Positions 39,506 through 47,934 of a stretch of 64,000 bases of DNA are shown one piece after another; the first letter of the stretch is position 1, and each line of letters starts with the position of its first letter. The notes under the pieces are model-generated. The model did not search any database, was not told the DNA's origin, and saw nothing but the letters and a program-made list of their open reading frames with translations. The DNA comes from Candidatus Cloacimonadota bacterium (GTDB taxonomy: Bacteria; Cloacimonadota; Cloacimonadia; Cloacimonadales; Cloacimonadaceae). Where the stretch lies: contig JASKKR010000004.1 in the NCBI GenBank assembly GCA_030154085.1, positions 1-64,000 on the forward strand, in the 5' to 3' direction. Both the position numbers and the translations under genes were made by a program.

Positions 39506-40456
39506 TCATGGACAGTTGAGGAAGAAATCTCTGATCATTTCTCTGATTTCATCAGCGCTCTGAGCGTGATTGATCTTTGCCCGTAAATCCTTGCTGCCGG
39601 GCATAGATTTGATATAGTTACAGAGTTGAGAACGCATCTCACGCACCACGACATATTCATCCTTTGTCATCAAGGCATAGTCCAAGTGTTTGAGTGCGAC
39701 CTCAAGAATTTGTGCTTTTGTAATCGGGGAATAGCTTCCCTTTTCAAAGAATTCCTTGATCTGCTTGAATAACCATGGTCTTCCGAGGGCTCCCCTACCG
39801 ATCATGATTGCGTCACAGTTTGTTTCTTTGAGCATTTTTTGTGCTTTTTCTGGACTGTCAACATCACCATTTCCGATGAGTGGTATTGAAATGACCTCTT
39901 TAAGGATGCGAATATGCTCCCAATTGCTATGTCCAGAAAACATCTGTTTTTGGAAACGGGGATGCAGGCAAAGGATGTCTGCCCCTGCATCTTGCATCAT
40001 TAGCCCAAAATCACGGTAGTTTTGATTTTGAGCATCCCAACCACTGCGAAATTTAACGGAAAGACGCATAGTGCCAGCTAAAGCCTTTTTTACTTCACGC
40101 ACAATATCGGCTGCTTTATGGGGGGTCTTCATAAGTGCCGAGCCCGCACCGCGTTTCACTACCTTTTTGGCGGGGCAGCCCATGTTTATATCCAGAAAAT
40201 CTGGCTGGAATGGGATGAGCGACTCAGCAGCTTTTGCCATCACATAAGGATCCGATCCAAAAATCTGCACCCCATAAGGGCGCTCGTAATCAGAAAAGAG
40301 CACGTAGCTAAGGGTCTTACTATGATTTCGGATCAAGCCATCAGCACTCACCATCTCACTAACGAGGTAGTCAGCTTGCCAATCCTTGCACAGTCTGCGA
40401 AAGGCTTGATCAGTATATCCAGCCAAGGGTGCTAAATATAGAGGAATCTTAGTCAT
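39506..40456 (-). CDS. dusB: tRNA-dihydrouridine synthase
   Basis: A 316-residue FMN enzyme that reduces uridine to dihydrouridine in the tRNA D-loop. Motifs: LAPLAGYTDQAFRRLC at the N-terminus, VSEMVSADGL, DINMGCPAKKVVKRGAGSALM with the catalytic Cys, and IGRGALGRPWLF. It overlaps the HD-GYP gene by eight bases, so the two are co-translated. The DusB subgroup is the best guess for a bacterium with this motif set. Confidence 0.93.
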   Translation of the reverse strand: MTKIPLYLAPLAGYTDQAFRRLCKDWQADYLVSEMVSADGLIRNHSKTLSYVLFSDYERPYGVQIFGSDPYVMAKAAESLIPFQPDFLDINMGCPAKKVVKRGAGSALMKTPHKAADIVREVKKALAGTMRLSVKFRSGWDAQNQNYRDFGLMMQDAGADILCLHPRFQKQMFSGHSNWEHIRILKEVISIPLIGNGDVDSPEKAQKMLKETNCDAIMIGRGALGRPWLFKQIKEFFEKGSYSPITKAQILEVALKHLDYALMTKDEYVVVREMRSQLCNYIKSMPGSKDLRAKINHAQSADEIREMIRDFFLNCP

Positions 40457-42134
40457 AGTGATAAATGCTCTTGATCTCCATGATGTCAGGATGGTCGATT
40501 TGTGCTGGTTTCATAAATTGATGAGCATAAGTCAAATATAAACCACTATCCATGAAGAAATCAACCAGATTCCCGTCAAGATGTCCAGATTTAACCATAT
40601 TTGCCATTATATGCAGAGATTCTGAGAGACTTTGCGGGCTTTTGTAGGGGCGATCGGAAGATGTGAGGGCTTCAAAAATATCCGCTATCGCAATTATTCG
40701 TGATTGCAGAGGAAGATCATGTTCATTCAATCCTCTGGGATAACCTTTCCCGTCGAGAGCTTCATGGTGAGTAGCGGCATAATATGGCACGTTCTTGTAT
40801 TTTTTGGGGAAGCTGAGTTGAGAAAGCATTTCCCAGGTGATCGAAGCATGATCTCGCATAGTCTTAATTTCTTCAGGATTTAGAGTTCCTTTGCGAATAC
40901 TGAGATTTTGGACGTCGGAATCATCTATGATATAGTAATCCATATCATTATAGTGGACATTGATCGAAGCGATTTCATGAATTCTGGCTATATCTTCATC
41001 GCTAACACATTCTGTCCCGATATTTAAAGCTTGTATGAAGGAAGCAGATTGATCCAGGTAGACGAAAGGCTGCTCTTGCATCGGGGAGGGGAAATGCTTT
41101 TGGCAAAACTCATTGAATCCATCTTTGCCCAATTTTTGTTTGATATAGAGGAGAAATGTTTTCACAGTTGTGATGCGTTGCATGATGATCTCAATTCCAT
41201 CTATAGTACGTTCTAGTTTTGTGCTTTTGTCCATGACAAATTCGGGAGTAATAATCTTGCCCACATCGTGCATCCACCCAGCCATCGAAATTTCTTTGAG
41301 TTCATCTTCAGAAAATTGCACGTCAGCAAAGACACCTTCTGATTCCTGATTGATGCGTTCTGTCATCATTTCCGTCAATCTAGCCACTCTGGTTATATGA
41401 GCTGAACTATATTTGCTTTTGCGTTCTATCGCTCCCGCAATGGAGCGCATAAATTCCAGTAAAAGTTCTTCCAGATTACTGATCAATCGTCGGTTTGAGA
41501 GAGCGATAGCTGCTTGCGAAGCAAGAGATGAAAGCATAGCTTTGTGTTCCGGGTTAAAGCTGGTGACCTGCCCGTCTTCATCGAGAGGATTGATAAATTG
41601 GATCACACCCAAGACAGTATCTTCATGATCTTTTAGGGGAATGGTGAGCATTGCCTTACAACGATAATTTGTGCTTTTGTCAAAGTTTATGGTGCCACTG
41701 ATATCATAACCTTTAGCTTGATATACATCATCAAAAAACAAACTATGTTTTGTGTGGTAAACAGCAGAAACAATATGGGACAGTTTTGGCTTGCCATCTT
41801 CTTCATAAAGAGGGATCGGCGGCCAATCAACTTTCCCGTGTGAACCGCCCTGGCGCATGTTTAGGGTGGCATTAAAGATTATTTCAAATTCCAAAGCGGT
41901 GGCATCTTCATTAACTTTGTAAATTGTGGCACCGTCGGATTTGGTAAAGGCAATTCCCTCCTCTAGGATCATATCAAAGATCTTGTCCAGATCCTTTTCG
42001 CTAGAGAGGGATTCTCCGATCTTGGTGAGCTGCTGAATATGTTTGAGCTGGTCTTCAGCCATCATAGAAATCATGTTGATCACTTCATTGAGAGTTCGAT
42101 TTACTCGGAGATTGTGGCTAAATTCATATTGCAT
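40449..42134 (-). CDS. GAF and HD-GYP domain protein
   Basis: A 561-residue cytoplasmic signalling protein. Residues about 40-215 form a GAF domain (ITKSD-type FTKSDGATIYKV, LTIPLKDHEDTVLGVIQFINP), and residues about 225-540 form an HD-GYP phosphodiesterase with WMHDVGKI (His289, Asp290) and HHEALDGKGYP (Gly-Tyr-Pro at 464-466). HD-GYP domains usually degrade cyclic di-GMP or related dinucleotides. An insertion of roughly 100 residues sits between the HD and GYP motifs. It overlaps dusB. No diguanylate cyclase gene is visible in the window, so the ligand is unknown. Confidence 0.9.
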   Translation of the reverse strand: MQYEFSHNLRVNRTLNEVINMISMMAEDQLKHIQQLTKIGESLSSEKDLDKIFDMILEEGIAFTKSDGATIYKVNEDATALEFEIIFNATLNMRQGGSHGKVDWPPIPLYEEDGKPKLSHIVSAVYHTKHSLFFDDVYQAKGYDISGTINFDKSTNYRCKAMLTIPLKDHEDTVLGVIQFINPLDEDGQVTSFNPEHKAMLSSLASQAAIALSNRRLISNLEELLLEFMRSIAGAIERKSKYSSAHITRVARLTEMMTERINQESEGVFADVQFSEDELKEISMAGWMHDVGKIITPEFVMDKSTKLERTIDGIEIIMQRITTVKTFLLYIKQKLGKDGFNEFCQKHFPSPMQEQPFVYLDQSASFIQALNIGTECVSDEDIARIHEIASINVHYNDMDYYIIDDSDVQNLSIRKGTLNPEEIKTMRDHASITWEMLSQLSFPKKYKNVPYYAATHHEALDGKGYPRGLNEHDLPLQSRIIAIADIFEALTSSDRPYKSPQSLSESLHIMANMVKSGHLDGNLVDFFMDSGLYLTYAHQFMKPAQIDHPDIMEIKSIYHYD

Positions 42135-43463: not shown

Positions 43464-44411
43464 ATGTTAAGCAAACTAAAAAACCTACGTAACAAACTAA
43501 GCAAATCCAAGTCCGGATTTATAGATAAAATATCCGAAGTAATCAGGGGTCGTGGAGTTGTTGATGAAGAACTTTTTGATGAGATTGAAGAGATAATGAT
43601 CAAAAACGATACTGGTGCAGAAATGGCTGCCCATATCATGGACAAGCTCAGAGAGGAAATTCGAGCCGATAAAATCTCAGATCCCGAAGTGGTGCAGATT
43701 TACTTGATGGACATCTTGCAAAACATTCTTTTCAAAGACGTTGAGGATGAGAAAGACTTCTTTGATATCCCTGACATTAAGCCTTTTGTGATAGTATTTG
43801 TGGGTGTGAATGGCACTGGCAAAACTACCACTATAGGGAAAGTAGCAAATCGCTTTGCCCAAGCAGGCAAGAAAGTATTGATCGTGGCAGGTGATACTTT
43901 TCGAGCAGCCGCCATCGATCAAGTGGCAATCTGGGCAGAAAGGGCTGGAGTGCAGATCATGCGATCCGAACCTGATCGAGATCCTGCCGCGGTTATCTAT
44001 GATGGCGTGGCATCAGCAGTAGCTAAAGCATATGACGTTGTTCTCATCGATACAGCCGGAAGACAACACACCAAAGAACGGCTCATGAAAGAGCTCTCTA
44101 AGATAGATCGCAGCATCAAAAAAGCCTGTCCAGATGCTCCTCATGAGACAATCCTTGTGGTGGATAGCACAACTGGTCAGAATGCGATCTCACAAGCCAA
44201 ACACTTTGACGAAGCTATCAAGCTTACGGGTATTGCATTAACAAAGTTTGATGGCACTGCCAAGGGGGGAATCATCTTTAATTTGAAACAAAATCTGAAG
44301 ATACCGGTGCGGCTATTGGGCGTTGGAGAAGGAATCGATGACATAGAAAATTTCGATACGGTACGCTTTGTAAAAGCCTTTTTCGACAGAGGCGAGGATA
44401 GCGATAGATAG
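43464..44411 (+). CDS. ftsY: Signal recognition particle receptor
   Basis: A 315-residue GTPase that docks SRP-ribosome complexes at the SecYEG translocon. A short N-terminal helical part is followed by the NG domain: GVNGTGKTT (114-122, Lys120), GDTFRAAAIDQ, DTAGRQHTKERLM, TKFDGTAKGG and GVGEGIDDIENF. It lacks the long acidic A-domain seen in E. coli. The next gene starts directly after its stop codon. Confidence 0.95.
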   Translation: MLSKLKNLRNKLSKSKSGFIDKISEVIRGRGVVDEELFDEIEEIMIKNDTGAEMAAHIMDKLREEIRADKISDPEVVQIYLMDILQNILFKDVEDEKDFFDIPDIKPFVIVFVGVNGTGKTTTIGKVANRFAQAGKKVLIVAGDTFRAAAIDQVAIWAERAGVQIMRSEPDRDPAAVIYDGVASAVAKAYDVVLIDTAGRQHTKERLMKELSKIDRSIKKACPDAPHETILVVDSTTGQNAISQAKHFDEAIKLTGIALTKFDGTAKGGIIFNLKQNLKIPVRLLGVGEGIDDIENFDTVRFVKAFFDRGEDSDR

Positions 44412-47400
44412 ATGGAACTTGTCCGGGCAACCGATCTGGCAAAGAAGCTTCTGGATATTTTATCTACAGAACAAGCTGCTAGTACGATCCTGATCTTCGA
44501 ACGGCAAATCCTGGAAGATATCTATAGAGACCTTCTAATTGATGTGCCGCAAGGATTCAATGGACTCTTTGCTCGGATGCAATACTATCACGATCTAAAT
44601 CCCTGCCCGGAAAACATAGTAGATCAATTAAATAAACTTCGCATGATCGCAAACAAAGCCGCTCATTCGGATAGTGCAGATATCAGCATGACAGAAGCCC
44701 AATCCGGAGCACTATGTATTTATCATTTCTTGCAAGAAATATGTGAAGGTTTCGCCCTACCCGAGCTCGCTACCATGCTGAAAGATGCCCAACCTTTTGC
44801 TGAGAAGCCCAAGACCAAAAAACGCAGCTTTGCTTGTGTGCTCAAAAGCTGGCAGCCGTATATGATTAGCGGACGTATCAGCGGATTGGAACTGGAAGCA
44901 GTGACAGAAGAAGGAGTCGGGGTCAACATCCTGCTGCGAGACGATTTCCGTAATCTTGGAAAAGCAAAATATAGCACTCTTATGCCGAGTCTCTGGCGTT
45001 ATGCGAATTTGAATTGTCACTATCTTAGTGAAGTAGCTGGCAAAGAAAACTACTATATAGACAATCCAAGGAGCTTGGTCGTTTTAGAGCCTGACTTCTT
45101 GGTTGATGCTTCATCAGTAGCTGAATGTATGGCAGATGGTGGCTCATATCCGGAATTGTATATCCTCAGTATGATGTTTAAAGAAGTATCATCGGAAAAG
45201 ATGCTATTGGGCAAGATCGTAAATAACATATTTGATGAAGTTATTCATCAACCCAGACAAGAATTTTTGGATCTTTTTAAACAAGCAATGCGCTCTATGG
45301 CGATCCCCATGACTGCTCTTGGGTCAGCGGCGGTAGCACGGATCTATCATGAAGTAGAAAAAGTACATCAACCCGTGATCAGGGATTACTGTGCCGGAAT
45401 ACGAGACTTTGACCTTTTATTGGAACCTAGTTTTCTCTGTCCTGAATACGGTCTACAAGGCAGACTTGATCTTTTGTACTATCATAGAGGGAAGTTTAGC
45501 ATCTGCGAGCTTAAAAGCGGGAAACCCCATCCCCACGATGTTTGGCCGTCTCAACGCTATCAGGTAGTGGCATACAACATGATCATTCGCAATGCGTATG
45601 GCAATACCAAGCTTGGCACCAGTAGCATCTTGTATTCCGGTGAATCCCAAAAACCACTGCGGAATGTGGCAAATATGCCACTTCTGGAGCAGAATCTCAT
45701 GCACTGCCGAAACCGCATTGTGGGCATTATGCACCTTTTGAGTGAAAATCCTAATATCTTCTTTGATTGGCTTATTAAACAAAGCGGGGATCGCTATAGT
45801 GGCTATAGCCGTGTTACATTTGAACGGTTTAAAAAGCTTTTTAAGGGGATTGAAGGATATGAATATCAATGGTTCTGTGAAGAAATAAAACGAGCAGTGA
45901 GAGAGATTTGGCATGTCAAACTTGGTGCCGATTCATCTAATGATAGTCTGGGGCATAATGCTTTGTGGCGAAGATCGAGAGCAGAGAAAGAAGGGAAGAT
46001 AATCACGGATCTTGGGATAGTTTCTCACAATCAAAATGAGATTTTGCTCAAGCCAAATTCAGATAGCTCAAGCACAGATTTCCGACAAGGAGATGTTATA
46101 CTCTTTTATCAGCAGGATCGAAAGATAGAGCATCAGGAAGTAATGCGGGGCATGATTTTGGATATTCAACCCGATAGTATATATATCCTACTTCGAGGGG
46201 AAATACATCGGGCATTCCCCAAAAATGCACTTTGGGCTTTGGAACATGACCTCATAGAAAGCTTTATCTATGCACCTTTTAGTTCTTTGGTATCTTTCCT
46301 GGAGATGGACAAAGAGCGCAGGAAGCTCTTCTTTGGTTTGCGCGAACCCCAAAAAGATCCAGTCGATTGTGAGCCAGAAGATGAAAAAGAAAAGGTCCTG
46401 TGCCATATGCGTGCTGCTAAAGAGTTGTATCTCATACAAGGTCCTCCTGGAACCGGGAAAACATCTGGATTGATCGGAAACTATGTGGAGAACCTGTTTG
46501 TCAATTCAGATCGCAAGCTACTTATCCTTAGCTTTACAAACAGAGCTGTCGATGAGATTTGCCTCTGTTTAAGATCACGCAAAATTCCTTTTCTGCGTAC
46601 GGGTAATTCACAGATCATCAAAGATGAACTGCTCTCAGTAAAGATCCAAGATATGCGCTATCATGAGATAGAGAGCTTATTGAAGATGAACAGGATCTTT
46701 GTGGCGACTGTGCAAAGCGCTATCAGTTGGCATAAAGATCTCAAGTGCTTTTGTGAACTAGATGAGATGATAGTGGACGAAGCGTCACAGATCCTGGAAA
46801 GCTCCATATTGCCTTTGATGGACCTTGCTCCAAAGTGTATTTTCATTGGAGATCAGAATCAGCTTCCCCCAATTACAGTGCAAAGTTCGTTTGATTTTTC
46901 TTTCAATGACAGCCCGTTGGACGGTCTATGCTATGATGCTATTAATCAATCCCTCATGGAAAGATTGTTCCGTGTTTACACAAATAATGGGTGGAATTCC
47001 CACTTCTATATGCTTAAGGGACATTTCCGCATGCATAAAGAGATAGCGAAGTTAGTATCTCCTTATTACTCTAATCTGCTCAAGGAGATGCTTCCTCGTC
47101 AACAACAGCCTTTGCCAGAGTATCCCATTCCGCTTTATCTGCAAAAACGTCTCACTTGGGTGGATTGCCCTCCGACAGAAAAAGACTATTTGGATGAAAA
47201 GCAAATTATGGCAGTAAAGCAGATTGTTCGCAGGCTTTGTGAATCCGGCGCTGTGCAAGATCCGTCGACACAGATTGGGATTGTTGCTCCCTATCGCGTT
47301 ATGATCCATGCTCTTCGCTCTGAGCTTCCTGAGATTGCAATCGATACCGTTGAACGTTTCCAAGGCTCGGAAAGAGATGTGATCATCCTCTGCTTTCCCT

Positions 47401-47612
47401 TGCGGAATGTATCATCACTTAAAAGCATGCAGACTTTGGATAGCGAGGGCAAAGTGGATCGCAAACTAGTCGTAGCTCTCAGCCGAGCTCGTGAACGAGT
47501 GATCATTCTCGCAAATAGCGACATATGTAGGCAATCTTTACACTATAACAAGCTATATACCCAAATCTCCAACATGGGTGCTATAGCGAAGATACATGAA
47601 ATTCTAGACTAA
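44412..47612 (+). CDS. AbiV/DUF4145-like, PD-(D/E)XK nuclease and SF1 helicase fusion
   Basis: A 1066-residue protein starting on the base after the ftsY stop. Residues about 1-115 are helical with LNKLRMIANKAAHSD, the Arg-x-x-x-Asn-x-x-x-His pattern seen in DUF4145 and other HEPN-like domains. Residues about 340-420 form a RecB/Cas4-type nuclease site: GRLDLLYY (Asp353), CELKSGK (Glu366, Lys368) and the following QRYQVVAYN. From about residue 650 an SF1B (Upf1/Dna2-like) helicase follows: GPPGTGKTS (677-685), LSFTNRAVDEI, IVDEASQ (Asp789), GDQNQLPPI, GHFRMHKEI, VERFQGSERDVII and VALSRARERVII. Overall it is like Dna2, but I see no set of four cysteines for an iron-sulphur cluster. A role in DNA repair or defence is inferred, not shown. 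Confidence 0.8.
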   Translation: MELVRATDLAKKLLDILSTEQAASTILIFERQILEDIYRDLLIDVPQGFNGLFARMQYYHDLNPCPENIVDQLNKLRMIANKAAHSDSADISMTEAQSGALCIYHFLQEICEGFALPELATMLKDAQPFAEKPKTKKRSFACVLKSWQPYMISGRISGLELEAVTEEGVGVNILLRDDFRNLGKAKYSTLMPSLWRYANLNCHYLSEVAGKENYYIDNPRSLVVLEPDFLVDASSVAECMADGGSYPELYILSMMFKEVSSEKMLLGKIVNNIFDEVIHQPRQEFLDLFKQAMRSMAIPMTALGSAAVARIYHEVEKVHQPVIRDYCAGIRDFDLLLEPSFLCPEYGLQGRLDLLYYHRGKFSICELKSGKPHPHDVWPSQRYQVVAYNMIIRNAYGNTKLGTSSILYSGESQKPLRNVANMPLLEQNLMHCRNRIVGIMHLLSENPNIFFDWLIKQSGDRYSGYSRVTFERFKKLFKGIEGYEYQWFCEEIKRAVREIWHVKLGADSSNDSLGHNALWRRSRAEKEGKIITDLGIVSHNQNEILLKPNSDSSSTDFRQGDVILFYQQDRKIEHQEVMRGMILDIQPDSIYILLRGEIHRAFPKNALWALEHDLIESFIYAPFSSLVSFLEMDKERRKLFFGLREPQKDPVDCEPEDEKEKVLCHMRAAKELYLIQGPPGTGKTSGLIGNYVENLFVNSDRKLLILSFTNRAVDEICLCLRSRKIPFLRTGNSQIIKDELLSVKIQDMRYHEIESLLKMNRIFVATVQSAISWHKDLKCFCELDEMIVDEASQILESSILPLMDLAPKCIFIGDQNQLPPITVQSSFDFSFNDSPLDGLCYDAINQSLMERLFRVYTNNGWNSHFYMLKGHFRMHKEIAKLVSPYYSNLLKEMLPRQQQPLPEYPIPLYLQKRLTWVDCPPTEKDYLDEKQIMAVKQIVRRLCESGAVQDPSTQIGIVAPYRVMIHALRSELPEIAIDTVERFQGSERDVIILCFPLRNVSSLKSMQTLDSEGKVDRKLVVALSRARERVIILANSDICRQSLHYNKLYTQISNMGAIAKIHEILD

Positions 47613-47622
47613 GGAGTATACC

Positions 47623-47934
47623 ATGCCAAATCAAAACCCACCTCAAAAACAACTAAATATCAAACTCGACGAGAAAGTAGGCGAAGGCGTCTATGCAAAT
47701 TTCTTTATGATAACAAACTCTCCTTCAGAGTTTATCATGGACTGTGGCAGGATCTTACCAGGTCTTCCCGATGCAAGAATATATTCCAGAGTGGTCATGA
47801 CACCTAGTCATGCTAAGCAGCTCTTACAACTCTTGCAAAAAAATATGGACGCTTATGAAAAGCAATTTGGTGAAGTGAAAGTACTGGGGCAAAGCGAGAA
47901 CAAAGCAGTCGGTTTCAAGACTCATCAAAGCTAA
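47623..47934 (+). CDS. DUF3467 domain-containing protein
   Basis: A 103-residue cytoplasmic protein of the DUF3467 family: GVYANFFMITNSPSEFIMDCGRILPG, then ARIYSRVVMTPSHAKQLLQLLQKNMDAYEKQFG. Function unknown; members are widespread in bacteria. GGAG lies just before the ATG, and it is 10 bases past the helicase gene, so it is probably co-transcribed. Confidence 0.88.
   Translation: MPNQNPPQKQLNIKLDEKVGEGVYANFFMITNSPSEFIMDCGRILPGLPDARIYSRVVMTPSHAKQLLQLLQKNMDAYEKQFGEVKVLGQSENKAVGFKTHQS

Follow-up and report, generated by a model that had tools for sequence, protein, structure and literature searches.

A Dna2-like nuclease-helicase with a predicted HEPN-fold N-terminal domain at a conserved ftsY locus in Cloacimonadota

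Gene, locus and inheritance

An open reading frame on the forward strand of the window (the whole 64,000-nucleotide stretch of DNA analysed) runs from an ATG at 44412 to a stop codon ending at 47612 and encodes a protein of 1066 aa. The original prediction had placed in this frame, from N to C terminus, a HEPN-like domain, a PD-(D/E)XK nuclease and an SF1 helicase; our scans with family profiles and our AF2 and Foldseek analyses support this three-part architecture. The features of the gene and its two conserved neighbours are as follows.

43464..44411, + strand: ftsY, conserved upstream neighbour; the helicase ATG comes directly after the ftsY stop codon
44412..47612, + strand: whole gene for the HEPN-fold/PD-(D/E)XK/SF1 helicase protein, 1066 aa
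44412..44786, + strand: predicted N-terminal HEPN-fold (DUF4145-type) domain, residues 1-125, all helical (Pfam, AF2, Foldseek)
44502..44528, + strand: helix 2 motif R31-x3-E35-x2-Y38-[KR]39, which includes the HEPN-type Ex3[KR] element (conservation)
44640..44666, + strand: helix 4 motif R77-x3-N81-x3-H85, which differs from the canonical HEPN Rx4-6H (conservation, EcoKI HsdR spacing)
44787..45086, + strand: beta-rich region, residues 126-225, at the position of the Dna2 OB domain (AF2 strands 137-225; order as in PMC4716839)
45087..45776, + strand: Dna2/Cas4/RecB-type PD-(D/E)XK nuclease, residues 226-455, with D353, E366, K368, Q384, Y388 and R433-N434 (Pfam Dna2 and PDDEXK_1; invariant residues)
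45777..46376, + strand: stalk helices and beta-barrel, residues 456-655 (AF2 helices 464-504, strands 530-612; PMC4716839)
46377..47591, + strand: SF1 (Upf1/Dna2-type) helicase core, residues 656-1060 (AAA_11/AAA_12; invariant residues)
within 46377..47591, + strand: helicase motifs, namely Walker A 677-684, DEAS 789-792, GDQNQLP 813-819, R873, R1017 and R1025
47623..47934, + strand: DUF3467 gene, conserved downstream neighbour, followed by secD/secF in many genomes

A promoter scan returned promoter-like sites no more often than expected by chance. The neighbours tested in the window were mostly housekeeping genes and included no restriction partner or DNA-modification methyltransferase. The core block also holds a signalling-type protein with GAF and HD_5 (HD-GYP-type) domains (40449-42134), which lies beside the trmB and dusB genes.

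Next, we looked into how the gene is distributed and inherited. In a search of the Cloacimonadota, the window's family had the motif-bearing N-terminal domain in 41 of its roughly 50 genomes and a second family had it in one genome, with one match per genome, and orthologues with open frames were present in nearly all same-family relatives searched, down to 35% identity. The gene order was conserved as well: ftsY lay within 1.5 kb upstream in 26 of the 29 loci searched and DUF3467 just downstream in 27 of the 29, several of the exceptions being on truncated contigs. The locus was thus as originally described, between ftsY and DUF3467 and outside any obvious defence island. We compared the distance matrices of the helicase and of FtsY and found them correlated (r=0.88, a value reached in none of 2000 permutations), and the N-terminal domain followed the same pattern (r=0.83). 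Because the divergences of helicase and FtsY correlate, these sequence comparisons indicate that the helicase gene has been vertically inherited within one Cloacimonadota family. Absence of the gene is also tolerated, since three genomes (G020, G025 and G064) retain ftsY and DUF3467 and lack it; it is therefore not essential across the family. In some genomes without the helicase gene, the counterparts of 43464-44411 and 47623-47934 stay linked, being directly adjacent in G064 and adjacent in L144.

Outside the Cloacimonadota, long matches were found in about one in ten of the 148 Bacteroidota genomes sampled. No neighbour gene recurred among 68 other loci, mostly from Bacteroidota. Relatives also turned up in a few Bacteroidota plasmid records, and no annotated phage record matched the nuclease half.

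Nuclease and helicase halves

Pfam models matched the whole protein at AAA_11/AAA_12 (E about 1e-22), Dna2 (PF08696, 1.6e-6) and, weakly, PDDEXK_1. Structures were predicted from 18-27 sequences, and the full-length AF2 model (pLDDT 87) had mouse Dna2 as its best Foldseek match, along the whole chain (1076 columns, E 6.9e-45), with Ighmbp2 and Upf1 next and Sen1 also among the closest motors. A search with the A1 profile likewise placed Dna2 at the top (E 4e-46). The protein has the Dna2/Bad-type architecture, in which a RecB-family nuclease precedes an SF1 helicase and OB and barrel elements are present; in mouse Dna2 the order is OB, nuclease, stalk/barrel, helicase (PMC4716839).

We then assessed the catalytic residues in an alignment of 27 family members, comprising the window protein and 26 orthologues with 35-59% identity to it. 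D353 (in GRLD), E366-L-K368 and G677-P-P-G-T-G-K-T-S were invariant in 27/27, exactly at the residues that the original prediction had named for its Cas4/RecB-type nuclease and Upf1/Dna2-type helicase; both assignments also agree with the Pfam and structural matches. Furthermore, D353, E366, K368, Q384, Y388, K683, D789 and E790 were invariant in 68 more distant relatives, so that across all 95 aligned sequences the only departure among the nuclease and motor catalytic residues was one K for R at R1017. Because of this invariance, both the nuclease and the helicase activities have probably been kept. The RecB-family GxxxH motif differs at its usual His, which is N271 in the window protein; every aligned family member has Asn at the site, and most other relatives have Asn, Gly or Ser there.

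A second difference concerns the iron-sulphur cluster. In Dna2 and in Bad, a four-cysteine Fe-S staple holds the nuclease together (PMC7430649, PMC4716839), whereas the CxxC...C part of this pattern was absent from every Cloacimonadota and Bacteroidota member aligned. By its aligned sequences the Cloacimonadota family is thus of Dna2-like architecture but fails the Fe-S feature common to Bad and Dna2. The CxxC...C was present in just three relatives, all from Ktedonobacteria (L092, L096 and L101). These carry it behind the nuclease and have a second CxxC...C at the N terminus, as if the Fe-S staple had been retained, and a HEPN-fold domain was not seen in them.

The same genome as the window encodes an AddAB-like pair (G000:C35:86410-90421), consisting of a 934-aa PDDEXK protein and a 1084-aa UvrD plus PDDEXK protein. 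Its presence led us to rule out that the window protein is the main double-strand-break nuclease by default. It would also leave room for an enzyme that works alongside AddAB on substrates that contain RNA or at transcription-replication conflicts, with a Upf1/Ighmbp2-type motor and a HEPN-fold domain that helps to bind RNA; in keeping with this, the closest motors after Dna2 (Ighmbp2, Upf1 and Sen1) act on RNA. We regard such a role as improbable, given that the nuclease is of the Dna2/RecB type, and hence a DNase by homology, and that Dna2 itself has the same type of motor and scores best.

The N-terminal domain

The AF2 model of the N-terminal domain was compact and helical (pLDDT 95). Its top Foldseek matches in the PDB were almost all HEPN proteins to about rank 25, including HepT, AF0298 (2hsb), Csm6, HepS and MtlR, with probabilities up to 0.97; the individual E-values were 0.4-2 and none was significant, yet the matches were consistently to one fold. 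A PDB sequence search with the domain profile gave chance matches only. The Pfam DUF4145 model (PF13643), which belongs to the HEPN clan (PMC3710099), matched the window protein alone below its gathering cut-off (E=0.0016; 18.9 bits against 23.1), but it matched 17/18 family members at E<=1 (best 2.7e-5), and in whole-genome scans six orthologues scored at or above the cut-off (23.1-28.3 bits).

The EcoKI restriction subunit HsdR also passes the DUF4145 model, and the PADLOC profile PDC-M16A matches both HsdR and 17/18 of the N-terminal domains. Moreover, LRRIGNQAVH of HsdR aligns to LRMIANKAAH of the window protein with the same RxxxNxxxH spacing. Aligning the domain to the single HsdR sequence with hhalign gave a probability of 7.6% (E 0.0046) over just the R/N/H helix, and because this match is weak the link to HsdR rests on the Pfam and PADLOC profiles. 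Two HsdR-like DUF4145 proteins of related genomes (L155 and L156) share the GNx3H core of EcoKI HsdR and have Gly where canonical HEPN proteins have Arg. The structural matches, the DUF4145 and PDC-M16A profiles and the HsdR spacing together lead us to assign the domain to the HEPN fold, in the form that type I restriction subunits carry, in agreement with the DUF4145/HEPN-like domain originally proposed.

This kinship raises the question of defence, which the original prediction had hinted at alongside a housekeeping role. The window protein could act as an effector against phages or plasmids, a nuclease-helicase defence made of one protein in which the HEPN/DUF4145 domain would serve as sensor or toxin: DUF4145 is common in restriction proteins, as the PDC-M16A matches illustrate, the helicase half resembles Mokosh MkoA, and the gene of Bad in Geobacillus adjoins a methyltransferase gene (PMC7430649). 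The best MkoA stretches, however, fall in the helicase core, and the gene is found not in variable defence islands or mobile elements but at a fixed ftsY/DUF3467 locus, in vertical descent, among mostly housekeeping genes that include neither a restriction partner nor a modification methyltransferase, and with one N-terminal match per genome. We therefore hold a defence effector to be quite unlikely; the hint of defence is not supported, and the housekeeping role gains support as the likely one. Membership of a known defence system was rejected, since the PADLOC matches fell in the helicase core, in the Cas4-like nuclease or in the shared DUF4145 domain. The product looks like a DNA-maintenance enzyme and not like a phage-defence system.

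Within the Cloacimonadota family the N-terminal domain averaged 36% identity, and its sole invariant residues were R31, E35, Y38, R77, N81 and H85. The Arg-Asn-His pattern of the original prediction corresponds to R77-x3-N81-x3-H85, and position 39 was K or R in 27/27 members, so that with the invariant E35 an Ex3[KR] element is present. This conservation is a strong sign, read from the alignment, that the six residues form a functional face, which might even be catalytic. HEPN ribonucleases have the motif Rx4-6H, with a polar residue after the R and often with Ex3[KR], and alternative HEPN sites are allowed (PMC3710099). The canonical Rx4-6H is absent in the 27-member alignment, where H85 follows R77 as R77-x7-H85 and Arg never directly precedes N81. 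The Bacteroidota N-terminal domain is homologous to that of the Cloacimonadota (hhalign 98.9%, E 3e-17), and in the relatives from outside the Cloacimonadota, mostly Bacteroidota, R77 is kept, E35 and H85 are mostly lost and N81 is often lost, with the DNase and motor residues still conserved.

These observations bear on whether the domain cuts RNA. If R31/E35/Y38/R77/N81/H85 made up a variant site at which the domain cleaves RNA, a single polypeptide would cut RNA and DNA and unwind, and it could process 5' flaps primed with RNA, R-loops or transcripts at forks that are damaged. The fold, the Ex3[KR] element, the latitude in HEPN sites and the character of the six invariants, all polar or aromatic and spaced to lie on a single face of helices 2 and 4, agree with this proposal, but the arginine stands eight residues from H85, the domain persists in Bacteroidota relatives mostly without H85 and often without N81, and EcoKI HsdR shows the same pattern and to our knowledge is no RNase. 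An active ribonuclease is thus unlikely, and the original hint of RNA cleavage was not upheld, with the canonical motif absent and the pattern degenerate in most Bacteroidota relatives. Only a slim chance attaches to the fuller version, in which the six residues are a variant HEPN-type active site of a three-activity enzyme (RNase, DNase and 5'-3' helicase); in Cloacimonadota this enzyme would clear away RNA-DNA 5' flaps or the RNA of R-loops, and in Bacteroidota its RNase part would have decayed. Because Rx4-6H is absent, and because H85 is mostly and N81 often lost in Bacteroidota relatives that keep the DNase and motor residues, we favour a role in binding or recognition. In mouse Dna2 an RPA-binding helix occupies the N terminus (PMC4716839), and because the HEPN-fold domain takes that position, the analogy suggests binding of a partner or substrate.

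Proposed role and comparison with known systems

The reading we prefer, and consider reasonably probable, is that Cloacimonadota inherit on the chromosome a Dna2-like enzyme, with relatives occurring sporadically in Bacteroidota; it would process 5' ends or flaps, and its HEPN-fold domain would be a non-catalytic module for recognition or for binding a partner. It has the catalytic residues and the domain order of Dna2, and by analogy the enzyme would work in a Dna2-like way. It would load on single-stranded DNA with a 5' end (a 5' flap, a resected end or a stalled fork), the strand would be threaded through the OB-nuclease tunnel, the SF1 motor would translocate, presumably 5' to 3', and the PD-(D/E)XK site would cut the strand during DNA replication or repair. 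The N-terminal domain would recognise substrate, bind a partner or dimerise by means of R31/E35/Y38-R77/N81/H85. Several observations weigh against this preferred reading: six polar or aromatic residues as the sole invariants of so divergent a domain look like a functional site, possibly a catalytic one; with an AddAB-like pair in the same genome, end resection already has a likely enzyme; three family genomes do without the gene; and the Fe-S cysteines of the characterised Dna2 and Bad nucleases are missing.

Bacterial Dna2-like enzymes have been described as rare and sporadic (PMC7430649), whereas the one analysed here is nearly universal in one bacterial family, where it is syntenic and passed on vertically and combines a missing Fe-S staple with a domain known elsewhere from toxins and restriction proteins. 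It offers a bacterial Dna2-like enzyme whose role could be studied apart from defence, and it shows a HEPN-fold domain in use within what appears to be a housekeeping DNA enzyme. The original prediction had allowed that the same architecture might already be described in many genomes as ordinary Dna2. The basic architecture does occur in many Cloacimonadota and Bacteroidota genomes, but in the open-access literature searched we found no paper describing the exact architecture, and none relevant on Dna2-like proteins of Bacteroidetes or Cloacimonetes except that on Bad, from which the family differs.

Compared with the HEPN RNase superfamily (HepT, Csm6, MtlR; PMC3710099), the N-terminal domain shares the predicted fold, the Ex3[KR] element and a conserved His and lacks the canonical Rx4-6H. 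With the DUF4145 (PF13643)/EcoKI HsdR N-terminal domain and PADLOC PDC-M16A it shares the domain family, the RxxxNxxxH spacing and the Nx3H core. In type I restriction, however, the motor of HsdR is of the SF2 class and its partners are HsdM/HsdS, whereas the window protein has an SF1 motor and no HsdM/HsdS adjoins its gene. Mokosh MkoA/MkoC share a related Upf1-like helicase core, and other Mokosh parts were not seen. With eukaryotic Dna2 (mouse 5ean/5eaw) the protein has in common the order OB-like region, PD-(D/E)XK nuclease, stalk/barrel and SF1 helicase; it lacks the Fe-S cysteine pattern of Dna2 and adds a HEPN-fold domain of ~125 aa in place of the RPA-binding helix. Bad of Geobacillus is a bacterial Dna2-like protein with an Fe-S cluster (PMC7430649), and both it and the Cloacimonadota protein are bacterial Dna2-type nuclease-helicase fusions; compared by description, the Cloacimonadota family is without the Fe-S cysteines, carries a HEPN-fold domain and has its gene in a syntenic, vertically inherited locus.
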